From contig JACAVV010000007.1 in assembly GCA_024648695.1 (NCBI GenBank), forward strand, positions 124,001 to 188,000: a stretch of DNA of 64,000 nt. The letters are read 5' to 3'. Positions 22,038-53,319 of this stretch are shown here, in pieces; within the stretch, counting starts at the first letter, position 1; every line of letters begins with the position of its first letter. The position numbers and the translations under genes were made by a program. Source of the stretch: Nitrospina sp. (lineage in GTDB: Bacteria > Nitrospinota > Nitrospinia > Nitrospinales > JACRGP01). Below the pieces are notes generated by a model. The model made no database searches, was not told where the DNA came from, and saw only the letters and a list, made by a program, of their open reading frames with translations.

Positions 22038-23501
22038 ATGAAAAGTTCTAAACTAAAATCCGTATTGTCGTTATTAGCCGTATTCTTAATATCTTTAGTG
22101 ATCGCATCACCAGCATTTGCAGATCGCGACGACGATCAGGACAATGATCGCATTGGATTGAAGCACCGTGTAGATGCGTTGGAAGTCCAGGTTAACAACA
22201 TTGAATTGACTCCAGGTCCCGAAGGTCCGCAAGGTCCGCAAGGCGATCCTGGACCTCAAGGTCCTCAGGGTGAACAGGGAATCCAAGGAATCGCCGGGGC
22301 GGATGGCGCCACTGGTCCACAAGGTCCTGCTGGTCCCACTGGCCCACAAGGTCCACAGGGAGATCCGGGTGATCCTCTGGCAATTGCAGATGGCACTTTG
22401 CCTGGAGCCAAACTGGTACCGGATTCTGTGACCACGACGCAGATTCTCGACGGTCCGGGAAGTGGTCTTGATGCGGACCTGATTGATGGCCTCCATGCAT
22501 CGGAAATTATCGATGCCGCATCTGAGGATGCGCGAATTCCTATTTCCACGGTACCCCTCTTAATCACTCAATCCGGTTCTTATTATTTTACTGAAGATTT
22601 AAGTGTTGCCGGGGGATCCTACGGTATAAATATTGACTCCGACAATGTAACTATTGATCTAAACGGGTTTAGTTTAATTGGTCCCGGGGCTACAAGTGGA
22701 TTAACTACCATAGGTTTAATGATTACCCAGCAGTCCAATATCGAAATCCGAAATGGCACTATAAGAGATTTTCCTGCTCAGGGTATTCGCGAGAACGTTT
22801 ATAGCGGAAGTAGTGGGTACAGGATCCTTAACATGCGCGTTCATAATAATGGTGGTAATGGAATCCAGATTCACGGAAGCGACCACTTGGTAAAAGGATG
22901 CCATGTTTTAAATAATGGGGGTTACGGAATCGGTGGTTCCACAGGTGATACTTTGATAACGGAAAACGTTGTGTCCGACAATACCCTAGAAGGAATCATC
23001 ATTAATGATGGATCCGTTATTAATAACGAGGTTTACAGAAATGACTCCCATGGGATCCGTGTTGGAGGAAAAATTGTTGGGAATCATTCTTCCCGAAATG
23101 GAGGCCGTGGAATTTTTGGTGGATCAGCAACCCTTATTAAGAATAACACTGCAATATTGAATGGGTTATCAGGTATTCATTCTAGCGGAGGCTCATTGAT
23201 ATTTGAAAACACGGTCAAGGACAACAATCTCGATTCAGATCCCAATGAAGCGGGAATTTTGGTTTCGTTTCAAACTTTCGTGAAGGATAATAGTATTTAC
23301 GCTAATAGAATCCAAAATATGATCGTGACTTCCAGTGGTAACAACATTGAGAATAATTTTTTAAGTAATACGCCTGTTGGTATCAACTTTTTAGATTCTA
23401 ACAACTATTATTCAAATAATCGCTCTTCCGCAACTGCAAGTGATTTTGCAGGAAGTCTTCCTGCGGGAGCTTTGGACGGTGGTGGAAATATCGGGTTCTA
23501 A
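22038..23501 (+). CDS. Secreted collagen-like protein with right-handed beta-helix
   Basis: The 487-residue product has a signal peptide (1-28), an acidic patch ([10 protein letters not shown]), a short heptad helix (about 41-57, [17 protein letters not shown]) suited to trimerisation, then 18 uninterrupted Gly-X-Y triplets (60-113, mostly GPQ, GDP, GPA). A linker containing [17 protein letters not shown] follows. From about residue 185 to the end are repeated short strands with N-G, GNGI and NNE patterns typical of a right-handed parallel beta-helix (NosD-like). Likely a trimeric fibre with a beta-helical head, on the surface or in the matrix. AAGGA lies upstream of the ATG. The next gene, 32 bp on, encodes an atypical signal-peptidase-like protein. 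Confidence 0.87.
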
Positions 23502-32934: not shown

Positions 32935-34332
32935 ATGTACAGTTTCAGGACTCTTCCTTATTTCTTCAATGCTCCCGTTTTAGGAAAAAGACTATTTCAA
33001 AAACTTGAAAGCGCCACATCCCTAAAACCCTCATCACCCCTACGAGTGGGCGTTTTGGTAGGTTTGAAGCATACTATGACCGCGGGAGGACATGTGAAAT
33101 GCTGGGAACGATTTGCGGAAGCGGCAGTTCAAATCCCGCAATACATTGATCTTTCCATACACTTTCTGGGCGAGGAAGACAAATCCATTCCTCTGTCCCC
33201 TAACGTCCGGTACATTCATCACCGGCCCGTATTCAGCACACAATGCTTACCCTTCCTGGGCGAAGGGCCGGGTCACACGGATTTATTTCCAATTCATTTC
33301 GGATTGCAATCCTGTTTAAAAAACTATGATGTGATCCACTGCACAGACATTTTCTCATTCGGTCAAACCGCTCTGAAGTTCTGTCGCAAAAACCGGATTC
33401 CGCTGGTCAAATCGATCCACACCAATGTAGTGGAATTCACTCGAGTCTATTCGAAACTGGCGATGGCCAATTTAACGGGTAAATGGGTGCAGGAAAATGT
33501 GTTGAGCGCATGGTTTGGTTTAGAAAAAAAGTTTGCAAACAATATCGAGAAAAAATTAAACCGTTTTGTTCGCGAATGCGATGGTGTGGTGGTATCGAAT
33601 GATGATGATTGGAAGCGGGTACAAACCCTGAAAACCCCCTCAAAAATTCATTACCTTCGCAGAGGAATCGACAAAGACAGGTTTAATCCAAAAAACAGAA
33701 ATGTCCCGGCTTTGGCAAAATACAATATTCCCCAGGACAAGCTTCTCCTTTTATTTGTCGGAAGGGTCGATGACAGCAAGGGAGTCATGATCTTGGGTCA
33801 GGCGGCGAAGAAGCTATTGAATAAAGGTTGCGCGATTCACGTGGTCGTAGCAGGGCAAGGATCCCGAAGTGGTGATTTAAAACATTTGCTGGGAGAAAAT
33901 GTTTCCTTACTGGGTTCTATCCAGCAATCCCGTTTGGGCGAATTGTATGCCTCCTGCGATTTGTTTGTTTTTCCTTCCCGTTCTGAAGTCAGCCCAAATG
34001 CGGTGCTGGAAGCTTGTGCCTCCGGATTGCCTGTCATGGTTTCTGCCCATGATGGGGGCGCCCAATTTGTCAAACAGGAGGGTAAGGATGGATTTCTGAT
34101 TGATAATGACCATCCGCAAACCTGGGCCACGGCCATTGAACCCCTGATTGAAAATCCGGTTCGACTAAAAGAAGTGGGGAAAAAGGCCTCAAAAGAAATT
34201 CATCAGAATTCTCCTTCCTGGGAAGAAGTTTTAAAGTCAGACCTTCTGCCCGTTTGGCAAACGGCGGCCTCTGGCAATATGGAACCCTGCGAAGTGCTTC
34301 CACACGTGGCTTCGATATTTTATTGTTTATGA
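32935..34332 (+). CDS. GT4-family glycosyltransferase, first gene of lipid-type operon
   Basis: The 465-residue product is a GT-B fold retaining glycosyltransferase of family 4. The N-terminal half begins with LRVGVLVGLKHTMTAGGHVKCWERFAEAA; the C-terminal half has LLLFVGRVDDSKGV and the nucleotide-sugar E-x7-E signature in FVFPSRSEVSPNAVLEACASGLPV. The donor is a nucleotide sugar; the acceptor is not visible. No ribosome binding site is evident at ATG 32935, and TTGACT-17-CATATA overlaps it, so the true start may be somewhat downstream. Its stop overlaps the next gene's start (ATGA), indicating translational coupling. It heads a four-gene operon to 38910. Confidence 0.88.
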   Translation: MYSFRTLPYFFNAPVLGKRLFQKLESATSLKPSSPLRVGVLVGLKHTMTAGGHVKCWERFAEAAVQIPQYIDLSIHFLGEEDKSIPLSPNVRYIHHRPVFSTQCLPFLGEGPGHTDLFPIHFGLQSCLKNYDVIHCTDIFSFGQTALKFCRKNRIPLVKSIHTNVVEFTRVYSKLAMANLTGKWVQENVLSAWFGLEKKFANNIEKKLNRFVRECDGVVVSNDDDWKRVQTLKTPSKIHYLRRGIDKDRFNPKNRNVPALAKYNIPQDKLLLLFVGRVDDSKGVMILGQAAKKLLNKGCAIHVVVAGQGSRSGDLKHLLGENVSLLGSIQQSRLGELYASCDLFVFPSRSEVSPNAVLEACASGLPVMVSAHDGGAQFVKQEGKDGFLIDNDHPQTWATAIEPLIENPVRLKEVGKKASKEIHQNSPSWEEVLKSDLLPVWQTAASGNMEPCEVLPHVASIFYCL

Positions 34333-36770
34333 TTGAAAACGACCTGCCGAAGCTTTCGCAATCTCCTTCGACGATCAATATTTCAAATGCCTTCAGCGAG
34401 TTAGGGGTCGACCCCTCCAGGTCAGAAAACTGGATCGAGGCGCTTCCTTTTTCCGACAGGGATACCACGGCAGGAGCGGAAAGCGAGATGCACTCGCTCG
34501 TTCTGGGTAGCAAGGACGATGTCGACTTGCCCTCTATTCTGCAACAATCCAACTTTTTCGAAAATATTCTGAAACGTTCCATTGCAGGAGAAACTTCCTA
34601 CAAGCGGATAGGCGATTTGAATCGGTTTTTGGAGGCTAACGGGGAAAATGTCTGGGATAACAGCTGGGTCCGGATAGATCGCCAATGTCTTTCCGGTTAT
34701 TCCTGGTCGGTATTCAGAAAAGATCTCCTGAAAGACAAAGGGCATCCGGATTTGGGATTGAGAGATGACTGGAAATCCTTTTATTGCGATGAAGGGGCCG
34801 AGGAACAAATCAGAATCCCTATCAGTTACCTTTTAAAACTTTCCCTGGCTGATGTTTTGGGGGATATCGAGAACTTACCGGGTTCCATTAACCATTTGGG
34901 CCAACGGTTGCTTAACCACTTTTTAAACGATAACACGTCTCCCGAAATCCATTCTTTTTATGTCTGTCGGCTGAGTTCCGAATCGGGCAATGGAATGGCC
35001 ATTGCCAGGGAAACGTCAAAACGGTTTTTGATGACCCAGCTTCTGGTCATGTACGCCAATAACAAGTTTGGGCTAAAAAAAAGCGGACAAACGGTCCGGG
35101 TGTTTTATTCGCCCTTGCCCCCGCAACGGCAGAGGAACCTGAATGAAATCATTCCCGATTCCTTTTACCGCGAGCTGTACATGAGCCCCTGCCTTTCGGG
35201 CTGGGATAAGGGAGAGGACAAACATGCTTATATGGAACTTTGCCACGAAGTTCTCAGCCGAAGCCAATTAAACGCCTTATCCAAATTGAAGGAAGCGGGA
35301 ATCATCACCAGAAACCTGGTGGTTCTGCCGAACACCTCAAATGTTAGCCTGGCCAATAACGGCACACATTTGAGTCTGGGCAGTTTGAAATTGTCTCAGG
35401 CCTTAAAATCACCCAACAAAGATTTCAACCAACTTCACGAAAAACAAATTGGGGATTTGGCCATCAAGGTGATGGAACATTTTCTTCCCCTTTTCGTTGG
35501 AACCTATTCCGCCGCACCCAACCGAATGGAGTTTTTTAACTTTCATCCGGAAACGGCTTTGGGCTTTTTACCTCATGAACTTCATTTTACCCACTTGAGG
35601 ATGATCTGGAGGCGGTGGCGCAAAAAAGCCAAGTTGAAAGTGTTCAACCGGCCTATCACTCCCTTTGGCCCAATTTGGCTTGATAATATTGTCAATCAGG
35701 TTTTCTCGTTCAAGGGAGACTACCTGCCCGATTATCGCCTTGTGGACTACATGGTGTCTTTGTTGGGAACAGAAACCTGTTCAGCTCTCAATGGAGAATT
35801 GGGTAATGTGGAAGCGCTTCAAAAGGAATTGATGCAAATGGGCGTGTTTGACAAAAGGATGTCCCTGTATCAATTCATCAAACTCCGCTCCTTTGGTAAC
35901 ATGGGCTATTCGGGGTTTGAGGGCAGGCATTATTCGTTATTCTACAACTTGCTGGATGACTTTTCACAGGCCGCCAATTTGCAACACCTGCTTTCCTTAT
36001 TTGCCCTCAAATTAATTGCGCAAGGTCGTATCACCCACCAGCATATTCCGGATAAACCTTTTTGGGAAAGCGAGCGACGCCAAATGGTGTTTGGGTGCGC
36101 ATTGGGAATTCCTACCTTCTTTGTGCAACTACACAGTCAAAATGAATTTTTGAAATGGATATTGAAACGGGTCAACAATTGCCGGGTGAGCAAAAGGTAC
36201 ACCGACTCGGTACGTGTTTATAGCAATGAGTATCAATTAGGACTGCTGAAGGTTTTAAAAGAGGAAGCGAGTGACTTGATTGAACACCTCAACATGGAAA
36301 CTACCATTTGGGATTTGGAAATGCGCTTAAAGGAACCGGATATCTGTTCCTCCTTTGGGCAAATTTCCAACGCGATCCTTTTAGAGGGAGGCAAAACTTC
36401 TGCTTTCGATTTTTCCAGTGATGATTTCAACATGACGGCAGAACGCTATTACAGAACCCGGCTCAGGACAAAACATTTGAGGGAATCGTACGATTTGTTA
36501 AAAACCAATCTTGCCAAAAAACTTGAGCAAGGACAACTTCCTCAGGAGATAACACCCGAATTTGCCCAGGGCATCAGTCCCACTCGAGTCATTGAATATT
36601 TAGACTCCCTGGGATCTCCTTTAATGAGAGAAAAAGTGGATGTGCCCGACCTGAAAAATTTGATCCATCTGGTTTTAATCGATACTTATCTGGAACAGAT
36701 AACTCAAAATAAAAACATGGAACTATCCAATCAAACCCAAGCCTCGTCAAAGTCGGCTTTGATTTCATAG
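34329..36770 (+). CDS. Large cytoplasmic protein of unknown function in GT4-PSD-Lgt operon
   Basis: The 813-residue product starts at ATG 34329, overlapping the glycosyltransferase stop by 4 bp, so coupling fixes the start (an upstream start at 34254 would overlap it by 79 bp). There is no signal peptide and no clear membrane segment. I recognise no domain. Features seen: a basic stretch (RMIWRRWRKKAKLK), FVCRLSSESGNG-like region near residue 215, YRTRLRTKHLRESYDLLKTNLAKKLEQ near 710 predicted helical. Its conserved place between a glycosyltransferase and a phosphatidylserine-decarboxylase-like enzyme suggests it acts on the same product, possibly as a carrier-dependent or multi-subunit enzyme; this is inference only. 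Confidence 0.75.
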   Translation: MIENDLPKLSQSPSTINISNAFSELGVDPSRSENWIEALPFSDRDTTAGAESEMHSLVLGSKDDVDLPSILQQSNFFENILKRSIAGETSYKRIGDLNRFLEANGENVWDNSWVRIDRQCLSGYSWSVFRKDLLKDKGHPDLGLRDDWKSFYCDEGAEEQIRIPISYLLKLSLADVLGDIENLPGSINHLGQRLLNHFLNDNTSPEIHSFYVCRLSSESGNGMAIARETSKRFLMTQLLVMYANNKFGLKKSGQTVRVFYSPLPPQRQRNLNEIIPDSFYRELYMSPCLSGWDKGEDKHAYMELCHEVLSRSQLNALSKLKEAGIITRNLVVLPNTSNVSLANNGTHLSLGSLKLSQALKSPNKDFNQLHEKQIGDLAIKVMEHFLPLFVGTYSAAPNRMEFFNFHPETALGFLPHELHFTHLRMIWRRWRKKAKLKVFNRPITPFGPIWLDNIVNQVFSFKGDYLPDYRLVDYMVSLLGTETCSALNGELGNVEALQKELMQMGVFDKRMSLYQFIKLRSFGNMGYSGFEGRHYSLFYNLLDDFSQAANLQHLLSLFALKLIAQGRITHQHIPDKPFWESERRQMVFGCALGIPTFFVQLHSQNEFLKWILKRVNNCRVSKRYTDSVRVYSNEYQLGLLKVLKEEASDLIEHLNMETTIWDLEMRLKEPDICSSFGQISNAILLEGGKTSAFDFSSDDFNMTAERYYRTRLRTKHLRESYDLLKTNLAKKLEQGQLPQEITPEFAQGISPTRVIEYLDSLGSPLMREKVDVPDLKNLIHLVLIDTYLEQITQNKNMELSNQTQASSKSALIS

Positions 36771-36812
36771 GAATAATTAAAACATATTGCAGGATTGGAA
36801 ATTGAGGAAATA

Positions 36813-37844
36813 ATGCTGTTTCAACCCACCCGCGTGCCGCATCAATATATTGTCGCAGAAACCAAAGAAGTCAAAACCGAAACTCTGTTTGCCGACAGTT
36901 TGGTGAACTGGATGTATTCATCCGTTCGCGAAAAGACACCCAAACTATTTGATTGCCTGACCAGCCAGCGTATGACCCAGGTGTTGGGATTTGTGAATTA
37001 TGAGACGCTTTTGGGGTCTCGGCTTACCGGCAACAAAAAGTTCATTTCCCAATCAGGAATCAATAAAAACGAGTGCCTGGACGATGTGTATTCCCTGGAC
37101 ACTCCAAAAAAATTTTTCGAGCGCAAAATCAAATACTGGGAATATCGACCTTTGCCAATGGATCCGGACGCCATTGTTTCTCCTTGCGATTCACGGGTTT
37201 TACTGGGATCTTTCGAAACCAGTTCGTCCCTGTTTATTAAAGAAAAGTTTTTTGATTTCGAAGAACTCATTGGCCAGGACAAAACCACCTGGATGAAAAC
37301 GTTCCGTCACGGCGATTTCGGAGTGTTCCGCCTGACGCCGGAAAAGTACCATTACAATCATTCTCCTGTATCGGGAAAGGTGGTCGATTTTTATTCTCTG
37401 GATGGCAACTACCATTCATGCAACCCGAATGCAATTATTCAACTGGCATCCTTGTACAGCAAGAACAAACGAATTATTACAGTGATCGATACCAATGTTG
37501 AAGGAGGTTCGGGAATCGGCAAGGTCATGATGATTGAAGTGGTCGCATTGATGATCGGAGATATTGCCCAGTGTTATAGCACCAAAAAGTACCAGGATCC
37601 ACAACCTGTCCAATTGGGCTTGTTCATGAACAAAGGACAACCCAAAAGCCTGTTTCGGCCCGGAAGCAGTACCACGGTTTTGATTTTTGAAAAAGATAAA
37701 GTGTCCTTCGATCAAGAAATATTAGAAAACATGAACGATTCCCGCGCGCACAGCCGGTTCTCATATAATTTTAATGAACCTCTAGTGGAAACGGAAGTTA
37801 GAGTGAGGTCCTACATTGGAGACCCGTTAAGGAAAAAGGATTGA
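36813..37844 (+). CDS. Phosphatidylserine decarboxylase-like pyruvoyl enzyme
   Basis: The 343-residue product keeps the hallmarks of the PSD family: SPCDSRV (Asp126, in place of SPADGRV), FRLTPEKYHYNHSPVSG (His183 region), VQLGLFMNKGQP in place of ELGxFxxG, and the self-cleavage site FRPGSSTTVLIF, where Ser285 after Gly284 would become the pyruvoyl group. PSD makes phosphatidylethanolamine from phosphatidylserine. The N-terminal ~115 residues are an extension of the kind found in longer PSD homologues. The start at 36813 has TTGAGGAAATA upstream; a TTG at 36795 is less likely. In an operon with a glycosyltransferase and an Lgt-like enzyme it may act on a special lipid or lipid-linked substrate rather than bulk phosphatidylserine. 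Confidence 0.87.
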   Translation: MLFQPTRVPHQYIVAETKEVKTETLFADSLVNWMYSSVREKTPKLFDCLTSQRMTQVLGFVNYETLLGSRLTGNKKFISQSGINKNECLDDVYSLDTPKKFFERKIKYWEYRPLPMDPDAIVSPCDSRVLLGSFETSSSLFIKEKFFDFEELIGQDKTTWMKTFRHGDFGVFRLTPEKYHYNHSPVSGKVVDFYSLDGNYHSCNPNAIIQLASLYSKNKRIITVIDTNVEGGSGIGKVMMIEVVALMIGDIAQCYSTKKYQDPQPVQLGLFMNKGQPKSLFRPGSSTTVLIFEKDKVSFDQEILENMNDSRAHSRFSYNFNEPLVETEVRVRSYIGDPLRKKD

Positions 37845-37851
37845 GCCTTTT

Positions 37852-38910
37852 ATGAATTACAATAATATATTTTCCTTCAGCTTGTTTTTCGCCTGCATCG
37901 CCTATCTTGCATGGGGATTTATCCGATTGCCAGGGGAGGACAAACAATTTGTGGCGGTGATTCCCGGATTCAAACAAAAAGAGGGCCATTGGGAAGGGAT
38001 CAACTTTACCTATTATGGTCTGATAATAGCGAATTCCGTTTGTCTTTCCGCGTTCCTCTTTTTGATTTTAATCGCGGCTCTGAAAATACCTCTTCAAAAG
38101 GGATTGTTCGCGTTGATTTCCATTTTGCTTGTCACCATTCCCGCTTCAAAATGGATTGCCCGCTGGGTGGAGAAAAAAGACAGTACGTTCACCGTTGGCG
38201 GAGCCTGGTTCGCGGGCTCCCTGCTCAGTCCAATAATTGTAGCTGTCATGAATTTTTTCAATGGAAATCCGGAAACCCATTTGGAGTTTACTCCGATACT
38301 TTCTGCTATGCTGATCGCCTATTGTTTCGGGGAAGGACTGGGTCGGCTGGCGTGCATCAGTTTCGGGTGTTGCTATGGCAAACCCCTGTCACAGTTTCCC
38401 GATTGGGTGCAATCCTGTTTCAAACGGTTTAACTTTAAATTTTATGGCCGAACTAAAAAGGTCGTTTATGCCGAGAACTGGGAAGGCGTGAGCCTGTTTC
38501 CGATTCAGGGAGTCACCGCAATCTTTTTTGTGATGGTGGGAATCATCAGCCTTTTCTTGTTCATTCAGCGCCAATATTTTAGTTCGATGTTAACCAGTTT
38601 GATAGCAACACAAGGGTGGCGATTTTTTTCCGAGTTTTTTCGTTCCGATCATTTAGGCCACCAAAGGGGTTGGTCCTGGTATCAAATCTTTTCCCTGATC
38701 TCTATAATTTACCTGGTTAGCTTTTCACTCATTGTACGCGTAGGGGCCATATATCCGCAGGTAAATATCATCCAGGGACTTCATACCCTTTGGACCCCCT
38801 GGATAATCCTGTTCTTTTTCGCCTTATGGTCCGCCGTTTTTATCTATTTTGGAAAAAGTAAAGTCACCGGATCCTACCTGTCCTTTTCCGTTAAAACCAA
38901 AAACATTTAA
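37852..38910 (+). CDS. Lgt-like prolipoprotein diacylglyceryl transferase homologue
   Basis: The 352-residue product is polytopic (about seven to eight membrane segments) and carries the Lgt-type signature in altered form: EGLGRLACISFGCCYGKPLS in place of GRxGNFxNxExxG. WEGINFTYYGLIIA near residue 45 resembles the Lgt entry region. Lgt moves diacylglycerol from phosphatidylglycerol to the lipobox cysteine of prolipoproteins. Divergence from housekeeping Lgt, and location 7 bp after a PSD-like gene, suggest a paralogue with its own acceptor or lipid. It is the last gene of the operon; about 230 bp of non-coding DNA separates it from tRNA-His. Confidence 0.8.
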   Translation: MNYNNIFSFSLFFACIAYLAWGFIRLPGEDKQFVAVIPGFKQKEGHWEGINFTYYGLIIANSVCLSAFLFLILIAALKIPLQKGLFALISILLVTIPASKWIARWVEKKDSTFTVGGAWFAGSLLSPIIVAVMNFFNGNPETHLEFTPILSAMLIAYCFGEGLGRLACISFGCCYGKPLSQFPDWVQSCFKRFNFKFYGRTKKVVYAENWEGVSLFPIQGVTAIFFVMVGIISLFLFIQRQYFSSMLTSLIATQGWRFFSEFFRSDHLGHQRGWSWYQIFSLISIIYLVSFSLIVRVGAIYPQVNIIQGLHTLWTPWIILFFFALWSAVFIYFGKSKVTGSYLSFSVKTKNI

Positions 38911-39141: not shown

Positions 39142-39218
39142 GGTGGGCGTAGCTCAGTTGGTAGAGCACTGGATTGTGGCTCCAGTGGTCGCGGGTTCAA
39201 GTCCCGTCGCTCACCCCA
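39142..39218 (+). tRNA. tRNA-His (anticodon GTG)
   Basis: Acceptor GTGGGCG pairs with CGCTCAC. An extra 5' G (39142) opposes discriminator C, the histidine identity element. CCA is encoded. The anticodon loop TTGTGGC gives GTG. Confidence 0.96.
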
Positions 39219-39223
39219 AACAT

Positions 39224-39300
<77 letters not shown>

Positions 39301-39457: not shown

Positions 39458-39862
39458 ATGCTGAGAAAAGAATTCAAACGGAACGTCATTTCAGGAATTG
39501 GAACCTTATTGGTGTTTACGGTACCGACGCTGTCTCAGGGAGCCGCAATCGACTCCATCAGCAACGGCAGTTACGGAGCCTTTGTTTATGGGCAGTCCGC
39601 CCCGGCCAAGGCGTCGCCTGCGAAAACAGAAGGATCCGCAAGTAAAACTATGAAGCACGAAGGCAGAAAAAGCAGTCTCATGGATTCCATTGGCAACGGC
39701 AGTTATGGCGCATACAGTCATGGGGGTACTGCATCGAAGAGAACCAGTAAACCCCCAACAGATGGCCCGGACCCGAAACCGGCCATGAAAAAAGAAGGTA
39801 GTAAGGGAAATATCATGGACAGCATTGGTAACGGAAGTTATGGAGGTTATCAACATTCCTGA
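39458..39862 (+). CDS. Secreted protein with three MDSIGNGSYG repeats
   Basis: The 134-residue product has a signal peptide (about 1-30). Three copies of a motif follow at about 35-residue spacing: IDSISNGSYGAF, MDSIGNGSYGAY and MDSIGNGSYGGY, each followed by (V/S/Q)xHG or similar. Between them are basic linkers with KTEGSASK, KHEGRKSS and KKEGSKGN. I know no family with this motif. GGGAGGAAGG lies upstream of the ATG. The next gene shares both motifs, so the two products are probably partners. Confidence 0.75.
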   Translation: MLRKEFKRNVISGIGTLLVFTVPTLSQGAAIDSISNGSYGAFVYGQSAPAKASPAKTEGSASKTMKHEGRKSSLMDSIGNGSYGAYSHGGTASKRTSKPPTDGPDPKPAMKKEGSKGNIMDSIGNGSYGGYQHS

Positions 39863-39925
39863 GCAAAAATTTGATATGATAGGACATGAAGGTCCTAAAT
39901 TTTTGAATTAGAGGAGAACTTAATA

Positions 39926-40822
39926 ATGTTCCCAAAACACCAAACAGTATCAGGATGGATGCTCACTCTGATCTTTCTTGCAGGCTTGATCGCCTTACCG
40001 CTCAATGCTTTCGGGTCCACTATTATGGATTCCATTGGAACGGGGAGTGCCGGGAGTTATGACCATTCCAGTCCCCAAAAAGAGGAAGGCAGTAAAAGCA
40101 AAGGCGTTACGCCCGGAAAAGAAGAGCATAAAAAGTATTTCTTAAATAAAAGCGAAGGCAGTAAAAATAGAGGATACGGCTATCGGGAAAAAGCCGGACC
40201 GGGTTTTAAAAATGCTCACCCTAAAAAAGAAGGCAGTAAAGGGAAATCCTACAGCCGACATGGTAAATCCGGTCACGGCCATGGTGGCTATGGCAAAGGC
40301 CATCACGGTGGATACGGTAAAGGCCATAATCGTGGTCATGGGAAATACGGCGGGTATGGTAGGCATGAGGGCAGTGGCGCAGGAAGAAAACATCACGCCT
40401 CTAAACACCACGGGTATAAAAAACATGATGGTAGTCATGGGAAAAGTTATGGAAAAGGTTTCGACCATGGCGCTTACGGTAATAAGCACAAGGGCCACAA
40501 GCATGATCCTTTCAGGCATCTGCTTCGATACAAAGACAAGCTAGGCCTGACTAAAGGCCAGTTGCGGCAGATTCGGAAAATGCAATTTGATTACAAAAAG
40601 GATTCCATTTTGGCCAAAGCGGATCACAAGATTTCCCATATGGAACTCGACCGCGAAGTGCATTCGGGTCAAGTGAACGAAACCAGAATCCGGGAAATCG
40701 CAAGAGATATGGCCGCTATCAAATCGAGCATGATCTTGTCCATGGCGGACTACAAGATCAAGCTGTTAAAGTTATTGACCCCCCATCAACGCATGATGGT
40801 CACGGAGATGCACGGCGACTAA
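39926..40822 (+). CDS. Secreted His/Gly/Lys-rich protein with Spy/CnrX-like C-terminal domain
   Basis: The 298-residue product has a signal peptide, then MDSIGTGSAGSY and several (K/S)xEGSK motifs shared with the previous gene. Residues about 100-195 are a low-complexity His-, Gly- and Lys-rich stretch (GHGKYGGYGRHEGSGAG and similar) able to bind metal. The last ~95 residues are helical and begin with LTKGQLRQIRKMQFDY, an LTxxQ-type opening; together with the later long helices they resemble the Spy/CpxP/CnrX periplasmic family, which senses or binds metals or acts as a chaperone. AGAGGAG precedes the ATG. tRNA-Pro begins 23 bp after the stop. Confidence 0.8.
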   Translation: MFPKHQTVSGWMLTLIFLAGLIALPLNAFGSTIMDSIGTGSAGSYDHSSPQKEEGSKSKGVTPGKEEHKKYFLNKSEGSKNRGYGYREKAGPGFKNAHPKKEGSKGKSYSRHGKSGHGHGGYGKGHHGGYGKGHNRGHGKYGGYGRHEGSGAGRKHHASKHHGYKKHDGSHGKSYGKGFDHGAYGNKHKGHKHDPFRHLLRYKDKLGLTKGQLRQIRKMQFDYKKDSILAKADHKISHMELDREVHSGQVNETRIREIARDMAAIKSSMILSMADYKIKLLKLLTPHQRMMVTEMHGD

Positions 40823-43608: not shown

Positions 43609-45177
43609 ATGAATTCTCCAGATGCCATAGAATCCAGTACATCCGAAAGTTCCTTCATCCCGGGTTTTCCATTTCTGGTCCGGGCGATGGTTTTCACTTT
43701 CGCGTTGTACCAGTTTTCTTACATCTTCGCCGACCCGGACTTGTGGGGCCATTTGACTTTTGGCGGCGATATCGTGTCAGCCGGAGCCATCCACGCCACC
43801 GACCCTTATTCCTACACGGCCCGGGGCCATCGCTGGATCAACCACGAGTGGTTGACGGAGGTGCTGTTTCATAGTTTGTACCGTCTCACCAACAACACCA
43901 TGCCTTTGTTGGTTTTTAAATTGGCGCTGGGATTTTTTATTTTGGTCCTGCTTTCGAATGAAGTGCTGAAGGGGAAAACCGGCATCCGAATCTATTTCCT
44001 ATACGCGGTGATCTTCTTCCTCGCTGTGTCTGTCATCGCGCCGGCTTTCATGATGCGTCCCCATTTGATGACCCTGCTGTTTCTCACCCTGATGATCCTG
44101 GCCTTGTACCAATACAAAGACGGGCACTTTCACGCTCTCGCCCGAGTTCCGCTTATTATCCTCGCCTGGGTCAACTGTCACGGCGGAGTGGTGGCCGGGT
44201 TAGGCCTGTTCGGGCTTTTCATTATTATCGAACTTTTAAGGTTTCTGCGCGAAGGTGACAAGCGGTGGCGCTGGCTGGTGCTTTATGGTGGACTCGCTTG
44301 CGGTGCGGCTTTGATCAATCCATACGGCTACAAGTTGTGGTTGTTTTTCGTGGAGTCCCTGGGAAAGGACCGACCCATAGGCGAATGGGCTCCGGTGAAT
44401 TTGTTAGATGGCTCGCACTGGCAATTCAAATTACTGGCAATCGCCTTTGTGGCCACTTTGTTCACGCGTACAAAGAAACGTTTGTGGGAGGTGGTGCTGA
44501 TCGGGTTTGCTCTCATATACGGATTCAAACACCAACGCCACACCGTGCTGGCGGCAATATTACTCATCCCTTACCTTCATCGACAAGGCGAAGCGGTCTG
44601 GGAACGTTGGCAATGGCCGCCGGTGCGCTTCGAAATGACCGCGGTTATGCGTCACGGTTTGCGCGGAGCCTTGATCCTGTTCATCGGATGGCAGGCGTTC
44701 AACATTCACTCCGCACATAAGCTGAACGGGTATCAGGTTCTGGTTGAACCACATGTTTATCCCACGCACCTGGCCCGTTTCATGAACGACAACGGCATTC
44801 ATGGCAATCTGGTGGTGCCCTTCGACTGGGGTGAATATTTCATCTGGAAACAACCCGAATCCAAAGTATCGATCGACGGCAGATTCCGCACGGTGTATCC
44901 GGAGGAGATTATCGAACTCAACTGGCGTTTTCAACAAGGCGAACCGGGAGGTGACCCGTTATTGACGCGATTCCCCACCGATGCCATCATCATTCGCCGC
45001 AGGGACGGACCCCAAAAGCAGTTGGATACCAGTCTGCATTGGGAAAAAATTTACCAGGACCCGCTATCTGCATTGTATATTCCGAGGACCGATCCACCGG
45101 GTCCGCTCCTGCAACAGTTCCGTGCTGGAACCTTAAAAATAGACAACGCTCTTCCCCCCTACCAGTTCCCCGGCTGA
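43609..45177 (+). CDS. Polytopic membrane protein, glycosyltransferase-like
   Basis: The 522-residue product has about ten transmembrane segments. The early loop ADPDLWGHLTFGGD followed by DPYSYTARGHRWINHEWLTEVLF resembles membrane glycosyltransferases of the GT-C kind (acidic residues in the first loop) and a family of hypothetical proteins common in environmental bacteria. The C-terminal ~140 residues are periplasmic and contain VPFDWGEYFIWKQPESKVSIDGRFRTVYP. Acceptor and donor are unknown. No ribosome binding site is obvious. It stands alone between etfB (divergent) and the SelO gene. Confidence 0.75.
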   Translation: MNSPDAIESSTSESSFIPGFPFLVRAMVFTFALYQFSYIFADPDLWGHLTFGGDIVSAGAIHATDPYSYTARGHRWINHEWLTEVLFHSLYRLTNNTMPLLVFKLALGFFILVLLSNEVLKGKTGIRIYFLYAVIFFLAVSVIAPAFMMRPHLMTLLFLTLMILALYQYKDGHFHALARVPLIILAWVNCHGGVVAGLGLFGLFIIIELLRFLREGDKRWRWLVLYGGLACGAALINPYGYKLWLFFVESLGKDRPIGEWAPVNLLDGSHWQFKLLAIAFVATLFTRTKKRLWEVVLIGFALIYGFKHQRHTVLAAILLIPYLHRQGEAVWERWQWPPVRFEMTAVMRHGLRGALILFIGWQAFNIHSAHKLNGYQVLVEPHVYPTHLARFMNDNGIHGNLVVPFDWGEYFIWKQPESKVSIDGRFRTVYPEEIIELNWRFQQGEPGGDPLLTRFPTDAIIIRRRDGPQKQLDTSLHWEKIYQDPLSALYIPRTDPPGPLLQQFRAGTLKIDNALPPYQFPG

Positions 45178-45292: not shown

Positions 45293-46765
45293 ATGAATCC
45301 TTGTTTCAATTTCGACAACAGTTACGCCCGAACCTTTGAAGGCTTTTTTGCCCCCTGCAAAGCAGACCCCGCGTCCGCTCCGAAACTCCTGCAATTCAAC
45401 CATGCGCTGGCCGAGGAGCTTGGTCTGGATCCGGTCGCCCTCGATTCCGAAGCGGGCCTGGCGATTTTCTCGGGTATAGCGGTTCCCGAAGGAGCCGAAC
45501 CCATTGCGCAGGCTTATGCCGGACATCAGTTCGGAGGTTTCGCACCGCAACTTGGGGACGGACGCGCGCTTCTCCTCGGCGAGGTGATCGATAAAAATCA
45601 ACGACGCCGCGATATCCAGTTGAAAGGTTCGGGGGCCACTCCCTTCTCTCGGGGCGGAGACGGCAAAGCTTCTCTCGGTCCGGTCCTGCGCGAATACCTG
45701 ATCGGAGAAAGCATGCACGCGCTGGGCGTCCCGACCACACGTGCCCTGGCGGCAGTCACCACGGGTGAACTGGTTTATCGGGAGAGGCCTTTTCCAGGTG
45801 CGGTCTTAACTCGGGTTGCGGCCAGCCACATCCGCGTTGGCACCTTTGAGTTTTTCGCCAGACGAGGGGGTGTGGACAAAGTGCGTGACCTGGCTGATTA
45901 TGCTATAGCACGACACTATCCCGACACGGCGGATGCGGAAAATCCATATCTCGCATTTTTTAGAGCTGTATGCGATGCTCAGTCTGCCCTGGTGGCAAAT
46001 TGGATGAATATCGGTTTCATTCACGGCGTGATAAACACCGATAATATGACGATCTCCGGCGAGACCATTGACTATGGTCCCTGCGCCTTTATGGACAGCT
46101 ATGACCCGGATACCGTGTTCAGTTCTATCGACAGGCAAGGGCGTTATGCCTATGGCAATCAGCCAAACATATTGTCCTGGAACCTCACCCGATTGGCAGA
46201 AACGCTGATTCCGCTGGTTGATCCGGATAAAGACCGGGCCATCGAACTTCTGACCGAAATCCTGCAAGGCATTCCATCCATTTACGAGAAACACTGGCTG
46301 ACCGGAATGCGGTCCAAACTGGGTTTGTCAACGGAAGATCCGGACGATTTGGAATTGGTCAACGATCTGCTATGGGTGATGAAGGATGGAGAAGCGGATT
46401 TCACTCTCGTTTTTAGACGTCTCTCTCAGGTCTTGCGCGGTAATGGTGAAGCCATACAAACCCTGTTCGAACAATCCGGCGCATTCGACGTCTGGGCTCG
46501 CCGCTGGCGGAAGCGACAGGAGCAGGAAGGCATTCCCGCGGAGAAAGTTGCACTGGCAATGGACCGGGTCAATCCAATCTATATACCCCGCAACCATAAA
46601 GTGGAAGAAGCCCTGGACGCCGCAGTTGAGGAAACCGACATGATACCTTTTACAAAATTGTTGGCCGTTTTAACCCATCCCTACGACGAAGACGCCCAAA
46701 ACAATGCCTACGCCGAGCCAGCACCCGCGACAGATATCCCCTATAAAACCTTCTGCGGAACCTAG
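45293..46765 (+). CDS. selO: Protein adenylyltransferase SelO (YdiU family)
   Basis: The 490-residue product matches SelO along its length: YARTFEGFFAPC near the start, AYAGHQFGGFAPQLGDGRALLLGEV, DIQLKGSGATPFSRGGDGKASLGPVLREYL, GVPTTRALAAVTTGE, HGVINTDNMTISGETIDYGPCAFMD and NQPNILSWNLTRLAETLIPL. SelO is a pseudokinase-fold enzyme that transfers AMP to Ser, Thr or Tyr of proteins, tied to redox stress. The C-terminus ends FCGT, with Cys at the third-last position where eukaryotic SelO has selenocysteine. Length is typical (E. coli about 480). Convergent with the giant Calx-beta gene, 56 bp apart. Confidence 0.97.
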   Translation: MNPCFNFDNSYARTFEGFFAPCKADPASAPKLLQFNHALAEELGLDPVALDSEAGLAIFSGIAVPEGAEPIAQAYAGHQFGGFAPQLGDGRALLLGEVIDKNQRRRDIQLKGSGATPFSRGGDGKASLGPVLREYLIGESMHALGVPTTRALAAVTTGELVYRERPFPGAVLTRVAASHIRVGTFEFFARRGGVDKVRDLADYAIARHYPDTADAENPYLAFFRAVCDAQSALVANWMNIGFIHGVINTDNMTISGETIDYGPCAFMDSYDPDTVFSSIDRQGRYAYGNQPNILSWNLTRLAETLIPLVDPDKDRAIELLTEILQGIPSIYEKHWLTGMRSKLGLSTEDPDDLELVNDLLWVMKDGEADFTLVFRRLSQVLRGNGEAIQTLFEQSGAFDVWARRWRKRQEQEGIPAEKVALAMDRVNPIYIPRNHKVEEALDAAVEETDMIPFTKLLAVLTHPYDEDAQNNAYAEPAPATDIPYKTFCGT

Positions 46766-46821: not shown

Positions 46822-49800
46822 CTAGTTGAGGCCAGTGGGGGGAGTGATGGTGTTGAAGGATCTGGAATCGCGGACGTCGCCGACAAATTCCATGGCGAAC
46901 CCGGTGCTGGTTTCCTGGACCACCACTGCGCCCCAGAAGCTGAGCATGGTGATATCCGGAAACCCGCTTCCGATGGCATTGGCATTGCCCAGTTTCAAGT
47001 GAGGATTGTCCGCTTTGGGGCTGATCACCAACTGGCCGTGGGAGAAACTGGACGTTGCAGAAATAAAGGTAGCCGTCGGAATATTGTTTGAATTGATGCT
47101 GGAATTATTGGTCCCCACAATAAACAACTTATGCGTGGACCCTGACCGCACGGTGAACTCAATCGTATTGCCATAGATGGAGCCATCGTTTTCTACGGCA
47201 GACATCACCACACCGATCTGCGAATTCATGCCGGACAACGAAGGATGCGTCACACCTATAAACGTATAACTTCCACTGTCGGTCTGCCAGTAGGGTGAAA
47301 CCACTCGTTGGGATGAAGGAACATTTGGGAACGCTTGAGAACCGAAATCCAGCTTCACCGTATTGAATGCCAGAACTTCCCCCGTGTCTGTGTCCTGAAC
47401 AATGATCGAACCCTGGGTGTCTTCAGGTTCCAGATCCTGAACATTGGAATTGATCCTCACATCGAATTCCAAACTTTCTCCCAGACCCAATGTTCCGCTA
47501 AACGTAAGGTCTCCGGCGGAATCACCCTGCGACTCCGAGTCAGTTGTATTGACAATAAGGTCCAGCCATTCCTGGGTCAATGTGATTGAAAAGCGCAGGG
47601 GTTCGACCTTGCCATTGATGATTTCCAATAATTGCTCCTGGGTGCCTGGAAGATTAAGAATTTGCTGAATCTGTTCCAGGGTGAAACCTTCGTCCAAAAA
47701 GTTTTCCACCACATCCCGGATCGTTTCCTCAAAGGCCTGGAACGCTTCCATATTGGTCAGGGTGTACGTTTTTGATTCCAATTCACAACCGGTGGAATCA
47801 CAGCGAGTGATGAAATCATTACCTTCCAGCGTCACCTCTTCATTGAGTTGTCCATCATCAATGATCAAATTCAATTCCCTTTCAGCATCGCCCCAGCCAC
47901 CACTCAGATTGTTGAACGAGATCACATCCACATTGAGACCTTCAGTCTGATTCGTAGCGGATTCATTGAATTGAAAATTGACAACCAGCGACTGTCCCGG
48001 TTCCAGTGACCCGGAATCAGAGTCGAAGCTTCCCCAGGACTGAGTGTGAGACACTGAGAATTCCAAAGGCATTCCACCTTCATTGGAAACCTGGTATGAA
48101 ATGGTTTCCGGATTGATAAACTCCGATTCAAAATTGGTAGCGAAAACTTCTCTTTCGGGAAAGACGTTCAAAATTCCAAGAGAGCGCACGCTTAGATTAA
48201 AACTGCCATCAACCGATAACACGAGGGCATCATTGGCGGAACCGGTAACGGCCGCTTCATTACTGACAGTAACATGGATAACACAATCTTTTGATTCGCC
48301 TGATCCATTTTCGGGGGCGGCCCAAACCACTTGAGGCAGTGAAGCCGAATCGAACGTACCGTTGTCATCGCTCCAGGCGCTACAATCTGCGGTCCACAAG
48401 TAATCGAGATCGAATCCCCGGGTATCTTCGGCGACCACAAAAAACTCAACTTCAGAAAGGGAATCCGCCGGATTGCTCAAGCTGTCGGGTCCAGAGGTGA
48501 TGGTGAGATGGTGCTCGGGTAATACTTCCAGGTTGACGACACGAGTGATGTCCACACCATTCGTAATATCCCTGAAGGTCAAAGTGTCCGAATAATCGCC
48601 CACATTCAGCGCGTTGGCCGAGGCATTGATTTGCAGGGTCAATTGAACGCTGGAGTTGGCGGCAAGCGTGCCGGTCGAATCCGGTTGCGCCAGAGTCAAC
48701 CAGGTTTCATTGTGGCTCACGGAATACTCAATCGAGGCGTCGCCCGTGTTGCTCAAGGTGATGTCGACGGAATCAGGGCTGAACGGACCACCCACTGTAC
48801 CCGCAACGAGGATTCCTCTTCCCGGCAATACTTCCAACAAGGGGTCTTCGGGATTGCCGCTACCGCTTTCTTCGTCATCATCCAGAATGGTGAAGGTGTG
48901 CGAGGTCAAAGTACCCAACAACGCGCCTGATGGATTGCTTAAGGAAAGGATCACCGTTTCATCATCTTCAATATCGCTGTCGTTTCCAATGTCAATATGG
49001 ATGGATTGCTGGATTACTCCGGGATCGAAATTTAAGGTTCCCGTACCTGTCAAAGAGAAATCGAATCCATTGAAAGCATTTCCGCCGGTGACTTCATAAT
49101 TCACAGTAACCGTTTCATCCGCTTCCTCGGATAAGCTCACCTGAATGGAAGCTGTTGTATTGGCTTCGCTTGTTTCGGAACCGGCCAAATCGAAAGCAAC
49201 CAGAATTTCCGGAGGCGCGGGATCGTTGTCCAGAATGGTAAAGGTATGTTCAAATTCGGATCCCAATGTGGCGCTCACCGGATCACTCAATTGAAGCGTG
49301 AGCGTTTCATCAGGATCGAACACCTCATCATCCACCAAAGCCAGATCAATATTAGCTTCTGCGGTGCCTGCAGGGAAAATTAGTGTGCCCGTCCCCAGCA
49401 ACGTGAAATCCTCTCCCTCTCCAGTGGCTGTTCCACCAGTCAATTGATAGGTAACCGCAACCTCTACAGTGGTTACCTCGGACAACCGGACCGGAATATT
49501 AACAACCGGCGTGGCTTCGTCCTCTGAAGAATCAGGAGAAACAAAAGCGACTTCGGGGACTACGGGCTCATCATCGTCCAATATGGAATAGGCGCTTTCG
49601 ATTATAGTGCCTAATTGGGCATTCTCTGGATTCGTTAATTGCAAATCGATGGTTTCATCGGCTTCATCAAGATCATCATTAACAATCTCAATTGAGACGG
49701 ATTGTTCGGTTACTCCGGGAGTAAATTCAAGCACCAATCCTTCGGCTAAAGAAAAATCAACTCCACCGCCTTCAGCGGTTCCACCGGCATGAGAAAATTC

Positions 49801-52800
49801 CACCGTGACAACTTCACTGGTGGCATGAGAAAGAGTTACGAGGATGGTCGCGGAACTTTGTGATTCGGGCCCGTTGACTTCCGCTACATCAAAGGACACT
49901 GTCGGTTCGCTCTCGTTATCCAGCAGGGTCAATTCATATTGTAAGTCGGTGCCCAATTCAGCGTTGCCCGGATTCGACAACATAAATAAAACCGTTTCAT
50001 TTGCCTCATGCAGAGAATCGTCCGTCACCTCAACCAGAAAGGTCTTTTGAATTTCACCCGGCGCGAAACTCAGTTGGCCCGAACCCGGCACATTAAAATC
50101 CACTCCACCGCCTGTGGCAGTACCCCCTGAAACAGAGTAGTCTACAGTAACCGGAAGGCCCGAGGAATTCGATAGCTTAACCGAAAGGTTCACCGAGCCA
50201 TCGGATTCCGATACGGACGATTCGGCAATTTCAAAAAAGACGGAAGGCTGGCCTTCATCATCGATGATACTGTATTCGTGATTGGCAATTTCACCCAGAA
50301 CGGCATTCACAGGTTCCGTAAGACCTATTTCAATCGTTTCGTCAGTTTCATCCAGTAAGTCGTCCAAAACACTCAGATCAATAAACTGTTCCGTCACACC
50401 TGGATCGAATACCAACTGTTGACCGTTTAAAGAAAAGTCGAACGGATCCCCCTGCCCCTGCTCCGTCGCGGTTCCACCCAGGACATTATAATTCACAGTG
50501 ACCTGCGAGTCGGAAGGATTAGACAAGATGACCGGGATGACCGGAAGCGCAACCGTTTCCAAACCATCAGAATGATCCCGTGAAAAAGCCACTGTCGGCG
50601 TTCCGTCATTATCCAGAATCGTGTGCGTGAGGCTATTCGTGTCCCCGAGTAAAGCATTAGTGGGTTGTGACAGTTCCAGCACAACCGTCTCGCCGGCTTC
50701 ATCGATGAGGTCGTCGGTAATAGACAATTCAAGAGTACGTACCGTTTCCCCAGGAATGAACTCAAGAAGGCCGGAATCTAAAAATTCGTAATCGACTCCT
50801 GCGCCGGTCGCCGTGCCTCCGGAAACCGCAACATCCACCGAAACGGTGGAGGCGGAAGGGTTCGACAAAACCACGCGAACCTCGGAGGGAGTAACCGATT
50901 CATCTCCCTCTTGTTTCGAAGATTCAAAAGCAACCGTTGGAATTCCGTCATTGTCCTGAATCGTGAACTCATGATTTACATGGGTCCCTGACTGGGCATT
51001 TAATGGATCGGCTAAAATCAATAAAACCGTTTCGTCAGGTTCATCCAAAAGGTCATCGTTAATCGACAGGTCAATGGATTTATGAGTTTCTCCCGGGGTA
51101 AAGTCAAGGGTTCCGGAGCCCAACAATTGATAGTCGACTCCGCCACCCGTGGCACCTCCCCCGCTTATTGAATAGTCTACCGCGACGGAAAGACCGGATG
51201 CGTTGGATAAAGAAACACTAATGCTTGCAGAAGCCTGCGACTCCGAAGCACTAGAAGTATCCGCATCGAACGATACACTGGGAACTCCGTCGTTATCCAG
51301 GATAGTGTGAATATGCGTACCCGGTTCCTGCAGAACCGCACCTTGCGGATTGGTTAAACCCAGTTCCACCGTTTCATTGTTTTCGTCGAGGGAGTCGTCG
51401 GTAATAGCGAGATTCACCGACTTCACCGTTTCGCCTGCAGAAAATTCCACGGTAAGGTTTTCAGGAAGGTCAAAGTCCATTCCCCCACCCAATGCACTGC
51501 CGCCCGTATGGGCGATATCCACACTAACCGGCTCACCAGAAGGATTGGTGAGAACCACATTTATCATTGCAGGAGTAGCAAATTCCGAACCCTCAGATGC
51601 CCCCGTTTCAAAAGCCACACCTGGAACCGGGTCATCATCAAGAATCGTGACTGTGTGGTCTGTCAAGCCATTCAATGTAGCACCTACTGCATCACTTAAA
51701 GTCAGGAGGACAGTTTCATCCGATTCGTCAATTTCATCGTCATTGATAAGTAGTTCAATCGATTCGCTGGTATCACCCGGAGCAAAGGTCAAGGTGCCAA
51801 TACCCGGCGCATCGTAATCCACGCCGCCGCCCTGCGCCGAGCCGCCAGTTATGGAGTACATCACGGTAACCGAATTTCCCGAAGGTTTCGACAAAACCAC
51901 TTCGACGGACGACCCCAGGGATCCTTCTTCGGAAAAAGAAGCATCCGCAGAAAAACCGATTTCGGGCGGACCATCGTTGTCGGTTATTTTAAGGGTATGG
52001 GAATTGGGCGAACCTGAATGGGCATTGACCGGATTGGATAATGTGAGAACGACCGTTTCATCGTCTTCGTCCATGACATCATCCACAATCGAAAGCATCA
52101 AATTTTTTTCGGTTTCTCCTGGATCGAAAGCGAGACTGCCAGTGCCTAAAAGAAAATAGTCCGTTCCTCCTCCTGCCGCGGTTCCCCCGGAAGCCTGGTA
52201 ATCAACCTCCACAGGAAGTGCCGAGGAAGAACTGAGTTGAACTTGAACCACCACCTGACCAACAGATTCCGATGCAGAGGAACTGGAATTGTTAAACGAA
52301 ACCAGAGGAAGTGTTACCGCTCCATCCTCCTGAACCGCCAAAAAGTTGGGAGAACGCAAACTGGAATCCGGAATGGGCAATATCCCAAGGAGAGCCCCGC
52401 TGTCCGGATGGAATTTTGGAATATCCTTGTTTCGGGTATCCACGACATAAAGAACATTCGACTCGTCATCGAAAGCCAAATCGATGGGCCGGTTGAGATC
52501 CGCATTACTTCCGGGAAACGCGGATTGGGCTGTTCCTGAATTACCATCAAATTTATGAATCTGGAATCCACCGAAATCAGCAACGAACAGATTTCCTGTA
52601 GATGCTTGAAAAACCATTCCGCGGGCGATGGACATTTCATCTCCGGTATCTCCAAAAACACCGATGAAGCTTCCCGTAGCGTTATCAAACTCGCGCGCCT
52701 CCCCGCCATTACCCCCACTTACCAGCAGGTTCGAAGTCACCGGATGGAAGAGAATGTGTTTCGGGTTGGTTAAAAAGTTTGCCGAATCACCAAAAGAACC

Positions 52801-53319
52801 AATAAAGGCACCTGTCGTGCCATCAAATTCTCGCACATCGTCATGGGTCGCGTCGGCCACGAACAAGTTACCGGATGCAGGATGAAAAGCGAGGCCGAAA
52901 GGGGCGAGCAGGTTGGGTTCGGTTTGCCCAAACACACCTAGAAAACTGCCGTCGTTTCCATCAAATTCCAGAACCTTGCCCAGAAAGGAGTCAGCCACCA
53001 GCAAATTTTTTGTAACAGGATGAAACGCCAGGCCTTCCGGCTTAGTAAGCTCAGCCGCTGTTTGACCGAAGGAGCCGGAATAGCTGTTGGCCTCCAGATC
53101 GAACACCCGCACATCTCCTGTTCCCGAATCCGAGATCAGCAAATTCTTCGCAAACGCCAAACCCGGCGAGACGAAAAATAGGAATAAAACGAGTAGGACC
53201 GCAAGGGTGTTAATCCAAACCCGTTCATTTCTGCATTTGAATTTTTCTATTTTTGTAAACACAAAAAATTTAACCTGACAATGAAACCATGTAGGAAAAA
53301 TTAAATCCTGAAATGCCAA
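46822..53319 (-). CDS. Giant secreted NHL and Calx-beta repeat protein
   Basis: The 2165-residue product (start uncertain; a GTG at 53262 would shorten it by 19 residues and still keep the signal peptide WINTLAVLLVLFLFFVSPGLAFA) is secreted. Residues about 57-330 form an NHL-type beta-propeller (LAFHPVTKNLLVADS, GVFGQTEP). Ten Calx-beta domains follow (about 334-1485), each opening near PxVxF and ending (H)T(I/F)LD(N/D)D, with acidic DDxxDExDE calcium-binding edges. Then come a BACON-like Ig domain (about 1490-1600), further Ig-like domains, and a C-terminal ~160-residue domain from VVSPYWQ (about 2006) that also ends the 1756-residue protein at 26697. It probably forms a calcium-dependent surface adhesin or matrix component. 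Confidence 0.9.
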   Translation of the reverse strand: MAFQDLIFPTWFHCQVKFFVFTKIEKFKCRNERVWINTLAVLLVLFLFFVSPGLAFAKNLLISDSGTGDVRVFDLEANSYSGSFGQTAAELTKPEGLAFHPVTKNLLVADSFLGKVLEFDGNDGSFLGVFGQTEPNLLAPFGLAFHPASGNLFVADATHDDVREFDGTTGAFIGSFGDSANFLTNPKHILFHPVTSNLLVSGGNGGEAREFDNATGSFIGVFGDTGDEMSIARGMVFQASTGNLFVADFGGFQIHKFDGNSGTAQSAFPGSNADLNRPIDLAFDDESNVLYVVDTRNKDIPKFHPDSGALLGILPIPDSSLRSPNFLAVQEDGAVTLPLVSFNNSSSSASESVGQVVVQVQLSSSSALPVEVDYQASGGTAAGGGTDYFLLGTGSLAFDPGETEKNLMLSIVDDVMDEDDETVVLTLSNPVNAHSGSPNSHTLKITDNDGPPEIGFSADASFSEEGSLGSSVEVVLSKPSGNSVTVMYSITGGSAQGGGVDYDAPGIGTLTFAPGDTSESIELLINDDEIDESDETVLLTLSDAVGATLNGLTDHTVTILDDDPVPGVAFETGASEGSEFATPAMINVVLTNPSGEPVSVDIAHTGGSALGGGMDFDLPENLTVEFSAGETVKSVNLAITDDSLDENNETVELGLTNPQGAVLQEPGTHIHTILDNDGVPSVSFDADTSSASESQASASISVSLSNASGLSVAVDYSISGGGATGGGVDYQLLGSGTLDFTPGETHKSIDLSINDDLLDEPDETVLLILADPLNAQSGTHVNHEFTIQDNDGIPTVAFESSKQEGDESVTPSEVRVVLSNPSASTVSVDVAVSGGTATGAGVDYEFLDSGLLEFIPGETVRTLELSITDDLIDEAGETVVLELSQPTNALLGDTNSLTHTILDNDGTPTVAFSRDHSDGLETVALPVIPVILSNPSDSQVTVNYNVLGGTATEQGQGDPFDFSLNGQQLVFDPGVTEQFIDLSVLDDLLDETDETIEIGLTEPVNAVLGEIANHEYSIIDDEGQPSVFFEIAESSVSESDGSVNLSVKLSNSSGLPVTVDYSVSGGTATGGGVDFNVPGSGQLSFAPGEIQKTFLVEVTDDSLHEANETVLFMLSNPGNAELGTDLQYELTLLDNESEPTVSFDVAEVNGPESQSSATILVTLSHATSEVVTVEFSHAGGTAEGGGVDFSLAEGLVLEFTPGVTEQSVSIEIVNDDLDEADETIDLQLTNPENAQLGTIIESAYSILDDDEPVVPEVAFVSPDSSEDEATPVVNIPVRLSEVTTVEVAVTYQLTGGTATGEGEDFTLLGTGTLIFPAGTAEANIDLALVDDEVFDPDETLTLQLSDPVSATLGSEFEHTFTILDNDPAPPEILVAFDLAGSETSEANTTASIQVSLSEEADETVTVNYEVTGGNAFNGFDFSLTGTGTLNFDPGVIQQSIHIDIGNDSDIEDDETVILSLSNPSGALLGTLTSHTFTILDDDEESGSGNPEDPLLEVLPGRGILVAGTVGGPFSPDSVDITLSNTGDASIEYSVSHNETWLTLAQPDSTGTLAANSSVQLTLQINASANALNVGDYSDTLTFRDITNGVDITRVVNLEVLPEHHLTITSGPDSLSNPADSLSEVEFFVVAEDTRGFDLDYLWTADCSAWSDDNGTFDSASLPQVVWAAPENGSGESKDCVIHVTVSNEAAVTGSANDALVLSVDGSFNLSVRSLGILNVFPEREVFATNFESEFINPETISYQVSNEGGMPLEFSVSHTQSWGSFDSDSGSLEPGQSLVVNFQFNESATNQTEGLNVDVISFNNLSGGWGDAERELNLIIDDGQLNEEVTLEGNDFITRCDSTGCELESKTYTLTNMEAFQAFEETIRDVVENFLDEGFTLEQIQQILNLPGTQEQLLEIINGKVEPLRFSITLTQEWLDLIVNTTDSESQGDSAGDLTFSGTLGLGESLEFDVRINSNVQDLEPEDTQGSIIVQDTDTGEVLAFNTVKLDFGSQAFPNVPSSQRVVSPYWQTDSGSYTFIGVTHPSLSGMNSQIGVVMSAVENDGSIYGNTIEFTVRSGSTHKLFIVGTNNSSINSNNIPTATFISATSSFSHGQLVISPKADNPHLKLGNANAIGSGFPDITMLSFWGAVVVQETSTGFAMEFVGDVRDSRSFNTITPPTGLN

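Follow-up and report, generated by a model that had tools for sequence, protein, structure and literature searches.

The closest described systems are those for lipid remodelling under phosphorus deficiency, namely PlcP-Agt and btaBA (PMC4796936). The sulfate reducer Desulfovibrio alaskensis G20 forms phosphorus-free lipids via the glycosyltransferase Agt and the ornithine-lipid protein OlsF, and lipids of this kind are prevalent in anoxic, stratified environments (PMC5193443). The locus considered here lies in a window of 64,000 nucleotides (the whole stretch of DNA analysed, from Nitrospina sp. contig JACAVV010000007.1), and includes genes for a large protein, X, for a relative of phosphatidylserine decarboxylase (PSD-like) and for a relative of Lgt (Lgt-like). 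As in PlcP-Agt and btaBA, lipid-enzyme genes are linked to phosphate-starvation genes, and at one related locus (L086) an LpxH-like phosphoesterase gene and a GT4 glycosyltransferase gene, a pair resembling PlcP-Agt, lie directly downstream of the module. However, the conserved module has no phospholipase C (PlcP), phosphoesterase or betaine-lipid gene, and employs instead a decarboxylase, an Lgt-like transferase and X. The likeness to D. alaskensis G20 is that of a sulfate reducer meeting phosphate limitation with phosphorus-free lipids, whereas Agt and OlsF, the genes named in that study (PMC5193443), are not module genes. In literature searches, which covered open-licence papers, this combination of genes was not described.

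The initial annotation had drawn the locus as four tightly packed genes, and all four open reading frames are present exactly where, and with the spacing, it had given (Table 1). The GT4 and X genes share an ATGA junction with a 4-bp overlap, and gaps of 42 bp and 7 bp separate X from the PSD-like gene and the PSD-like from the Lgt-like gene, respectively. Gene calls are simple longest-ORF calls. The PSD-like gene could alternatively start at an in-frame TTG at 36795.

Table 1. Genes of the locus, with positions in the window.
Gene product	Position	Strand	Length	Pfam match
GT4 glycosyltransferase, accessory (non-core)	32935..34332	+	465 aa	PF00534, E=4.7e-30
X, first core gene, family unassigned	34329..36770	+	813 aa	
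PSD-like pyruvoyl decarboxylase, second core gene	36813..37844	+	343 aa	PF02666, E=1.9e-37
Lgt-like membrane enzyme, third core gene	37852..38910	+	352 aa	PF01790, 33.7 bits (six-frame genome search)

Directly 3' of the module are genes for tRNA-His and tRNA-Arg (39143-39300), and three consecutive tRNA-Ser genes are found at 374-925 of the window. Two adjacent small proteins, apparently secreted, are encoded at 39458-40822 and have in common a repeated MDSIGNGSYG-like motif, the second also giving a weak LTXXQ match. Other products encoded in the window include a protein with collagen repeats and a right-handed beta-helix (22038-23501), a 522-aa apparent membrane protein without a Pfam match (43609-45177) whose gene is 5' of a SelO-family gene (45293-46765), and a 2165-aa protein with ten Calx-beta stretches (46822-53319).

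The distribution of X was surveyed in two phyla, that of the window (77 genomes) and a second one that contains Desulfococcus multivorans (395 genomes). X was found in 5 of the 77 genomes, these five representing three families and four genera, and in 44 of the 395; a further two of the 46 genomes matched in the second phylum gave short chance matches and were left out. The first relative outside the window's phylum was a Deltaproteobacteria MAG contig in the genome collection (L005, genome G077), and the module is also carried by genome G238, inferred to be that of D. multivorans DSM 2059, at about 1.658-1.663 Mb of the chromosome. The order X, PSD-like, Lgt-like on one strand was the same in all 45 neighbourhoods read. 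Each of the three subfamilies occurs in about 44 of the 395 second-phylum genomes, and the sets of genomes are identical except for two cases at contig ends. For the PSD-like subfamily the threshold was at least 500 bits, the next best score being 145, and for the Lgt-like subfamily it was at least 388 bits for full-length genes, lower scores belonging to fragments or distant Lgts. Distance matrices of the three proteins were correlated (r=0.58-0.77), with none of 2000 permutations reaching values as high. With 45 of 45 neighbourhoods alike, joint conservation of these three genes, out of the four, is far above what chance would give. In the midpoint-rooted tree of X, the proteins from the window's phylum form one clade within the diversity of the second phylum, and the patchy presence of X in the window's phylum is suggestive of horizontal transfer. 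Relatives of X were found neither in viral contigs nor on plasmids, and the Lgt-like protein had no plasmid matches.

Outside the three genes the context is not conserved across neighbourhoods, and the commonest flanking families are of signalling and DksA types rather than lipid genes. Occasional insertions within the module comprise a DksA-like gene, a transposase or a fusion of PHP and GT4 domains (PHP-GT4). A DksA/TraR-type zinc-finger gene lies between the PSD-like and Lgt-like genes at three loci (L057:7591-7992, L058:11660-12061 and L062:4790-5230), and a fragment of an IS1595-type transposase is present in another module (L085:12923-13321). One copy of X (L045, genome G405) has an internal TAG; this copy and the L085 module are possibly decaying copies or assembly errors.

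The glycosyltransferase gene falls outside the conserved unit. An orthologue of GT4 is present in only 2 of the 77 genomes of the window's phylum, both of them X-positive and both with the gene adjoining the module, upstream in the window and downstream in genome G021. On this ground, and because different glycosyltransferases are found at other loci (PHP-GT4, Agt-like GT4 or MGDG-synthase-like), GT4 was rejected as a fourth core gene and is regarded as accessory. Hence, of the four-gene unit that had been proposed, X and the two lipid-enzyme homologues stand and GT4 does not. PHP-GT4 fusions recur near the module (L047, L048, L074, L128 and L005); the one in L047 adjoins a short second PSD-like ORF, and that in L048 is within the operon.

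The genome of the window (4.2 Mb, 97% complete) encodes a further Psd (G000:C45:184677), downstream of which is an ORF resembling CDP-alcohol phosphatidyltransferases and read from the sequence as pssA-like, and a further Lgt (G000:C45:53152), adjoining ORFs read as lspA-like and ileS-like. The module enzymes are therefore not the only copies in the genome, whereas sole copies would have been the housekeeping enzymes, and the presence of separate housekeeping copies indicates that both are specialised paralogues.

The PSD-like protein scores 129.3 bits against PF02666 (cut-off 22) and has in common with phosphatidylserine decarboxylases (PRK00723-like) the fold family, the catalytic D/H/S residues and the G-S cleavage site. 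Residues Asp126, His183 and Ser285, which had been reported as kept, are invariant in 40 of 40 proteins, as is the G284-S285 self-cleavage site. It differs from the decarboxylases in that it falls below every curated NCBIfam equivalog cut-off (152 against 371 bits and 94.5 against 111.75 bits), in its P-G-S-S-T cleavage site and in always occurring with X and the Lgt-like protein.

The match of the Lgt-like protein to PF01790 exceeded the cut-off of 24.9 bits in a six-frame genome search; hmmscan of the protein against Pfam lists nothing, and its NCBIfam match is weak. The residues essential in Escherichia coli Lgt are Y26, R143, G154 and R239 (PMC13251419). Their equivalents in the Lgt-like protein, Y55, R165, G176 and R257, are kept in 40-41 of 41 sequences, as are E261 and R264, the equivalents of E243 and R246, and the P-x-Q and E-x-x-R-x-D motifs of Lgt are also present. 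By contrast, the position of H103 is occupied by V, A, I, L, T or C in all 41 sequences, and not by H, Y, W or F, in a region where the alignment has only 22% identity. The Lgt-like protein further differs from Lgt in having extra N-terminal and C-terminal segments and in that its gene does not adjoin lspA. At the position of N146 all 41 sequences have Cys, as does the housekeeping Lgt, and this replacement has been reported in distant Lgts (PMC13251419). The signature GRLACISFGCCYG, which the initial annotation took to be altered, is no peculiarity of the paralogue, given that the housekeeping Lgt of the same genome reads GRWGCFFAGCCYG; GCCYG was rejected as an altered signature as it occurs in both. 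Retention of the decarboxylase and Lgt residues is, in itself, no proof that the substrates are lipids.

Protein X had been described as lacking a recognisable domain, and this was borne out by searches of Pfam (even at E≤10), NCBIfam and PDB sequences, none of which gave a match for X alone or for a 44-member profile. A PDB match to NifB (E=0.3) covered a 32-residue stretch and was treated as a chance match. An AlphaFold model built with a single relative (the L005 fragment) had a pLDDT of 34 and was not used. The alignment of 44 members includes about 105 invariant columns, many of them charged or His/Cys, and X therefore looks like an enzyme.

Reading of the neighbourhoods revealed Pst genes beside X at several loci. 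NCBIfam models for PstS, PstC, PstB and PhoU scored above their cut-offs near X, and a PhoB-like regulator reached 279 bits (cut-off 296). PstB (TIGR00972) was then searched for in 48 genomes with X, five of them from the window's phylum. It lies within 10 kb of X in 6 of the 48 (0.36 expected, P=1.6e-6), within 20 kb in 10 (0.73 expected, P=2.0e-9) and within 30 kb in 12 (1.09 expected, P=4.5e-10), where the expected values are upper bounds and the P values take no account of common descent and do not come from an independent sample, as some of these loci had prompted the hypothesis of a Pst link. Of the genomes linked within 20 kb, at least four (G233, G305, G138 and G166) emerged only in this search for PstB. 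The linked loci are scattered across the X tree, the closest pair being 59% identical, and their arrangements differ. The linkage to Pst genes is thus non-random, and it is limited to about a quarter of X loci. Neither PstB copy in the genome of the window is on the contig of the module, and PstB is not close to the module in D. multivorans either. Pho-box-like sites 5' of X (45 loci) were slightly enriched relative to other upstream regions (p=0.0013, and p=0.12 at a stricter cut-off), with base composition uncontrolled, and the region upstream of the operon in the window has no significant Pho box.

The most informative neighbourhood found is that of genome G138 (L124:11885-19278), in which the three module genes are followed on the same strand by genes for a diacylglycerol kinase (PF00781), a PAP2 protein (PF01569) and an MGDG-synthase-like protein (PF06925), beyond which lie a phosphate-selective porin gene (PF07396) and a set of PstS, PstC, PstA, PstB, PhoU and regulator genes. 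At another locus (L074), DgkA and GT4 genes are upstream of the module.

Judged from these sequence data, X, the PSD-like and the Lgt-like protein would form a three-step module for synthesis or remodelling of membrane lipids that is probably used under phosphate scarcity, with the Lgt-like enzyme moving diacylglycerol from a phospholipid to a different head group; we put the probability of this reading at about 50%. In the Lgt reaction, a cysteine thiol receives diacylglycerol from phosphatidylglycerol and glycerol-1-phosphate is left over, and in the Psd reaction a carboxyl adjacent to a free amine is lost. The Lgt-like enzyme, which retains the two arginines that in true Lgt hold the phosphate of phosphatidylglycerol, would release glycerol phosphate from a phospholipid and pass the diacylglyceryl group to a head-group acceptor that is not a prolipoprotein. 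X may make or activate this head group, and the PSD-like enzyme may decarboxylate an amino-acid-like head group, either before or after diacylglyceryl transfer. Glycosyltransferases would be optional partners, namely GT4 in the window and PHP-GT4, MGDG-synthase-like or Agt-like proteins elsewhere. Coupled to a head-group-supplying enzyme, the chemistries of Lgt and Psd could exchange phosphoglycerol in a phospholipid for a phosphate-free amino head group, and the product would be a lipid, perhaps a phosphorus-free or phosphorus-sparing one.

A more specific possibility for X is a very remote kinship with glutamate-cysteine ligase, a carboxylate-amine ligase, in which case the module would lead to a peptidyl or amino-acid lipid through ATP-dependent amide formation. 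This is a sub-hypothesis compatible with the lipid-remodelling reading, and it is doubtful. An ordered chain of motifs (G-x-E-x-E, D-x(4)-E, G-T-H, S-A-x-P and E-x-R) is present in 34 of 44 X proteins, in none of 178 unrelated proteins and in 22 of 22000 shuffles, and residues E51, E53, E206, H347, E531 and R533 are invariant; however, the pattern was written post hoc, after the X sequence had been inspected. Comparisons with glutamate-cysteine ligases by hhalign and by our own profile method also remained within noise, whereas the positive control, GshA against YbdK, scored clearly. As the profile tests did not support homology to GshA, YbdK or the plant-type GCS, X was not filed under the glutamate-cysteine ligases, and the resemblance is retained as a lead at the motif level. 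PF04262 (GshA) is absent from 247 second-phylum genomes. A bolder version, which we hold to be very improbable, is a new class of phosphorus-free aminolipid, in which X would represent a new family of ATP-dependent ligases and assemble the head group, an amino acid or peptide, the Lgt-like enzyme would swap the phosphoglycerol of phosphatidylglycerol for this head group via its thiol or hydroxyl, and the PSD-like enzyme would decarboxylate the product to an ethanolamine-like zwitterion, so that phosphate is recovered and a PE-like membrane is kept.

The retained catalytic residues of both enzymes, and a best NCBIfam match of the PSD-like protein to phosphatidylserine decarboxylase, would also suit an alternative or stress-specific route to phosphatidylethanolamine, with a second phosphatidylserine decarboxylase, a second Lgt and X as a regulator or scaffold. 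We consider such a route unlikely, because X is enzyme-like, the PSD-like protein is below the equivalog cut-offs, the H103 position of the Lgt-like protein is aliphatic or small throughout and the triad is obligate. The initial annotation had offered both a special phospholipid or glycolipid pathway and the lipidation of a specific protein. In the latter case, the Lgt-like enzyme would add diacylglycerol to a particular cysteine of a protein or peptide and the PSD-like enzyme would decarboxylate a residue at one end of the substrate so modified. Homology to Lgt with most catalytic residues kept fits this proposal, as does the fact that pyruvoyl decarboxylases accept amino acids besides phosphatidylserine, tryptophan decarboxylases being among the PDB matches of the PSD-like protein. 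However, only three genes are conserved, and no gene for a small protein, lipoprotein, protease or other partner is conserved beside them, which makes protein modification quite unlikely. The special-lipid proposal holds in general terms, given the specialised Psd and Lgt paralogues, the strict module and the lipid and phosphate neighbours at other loci.

If lipid remodelling under phosphate scarcity is indeed the function, the module would represent a bacterial lipid pathway not described before, including a large protein family devoid of known domains and spread between phyla that include sulfate reducers, and the Lgt fold would act on a substrate other than prolipoprotein. The presence of the module in D. 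multivorans DSM 2059 makes this testable in a cultured strain. The three genes would provide a concrete, testable gene set that may account for part of the phosphorus-free lipids of anoxic, stratified environments (PMC5193443).
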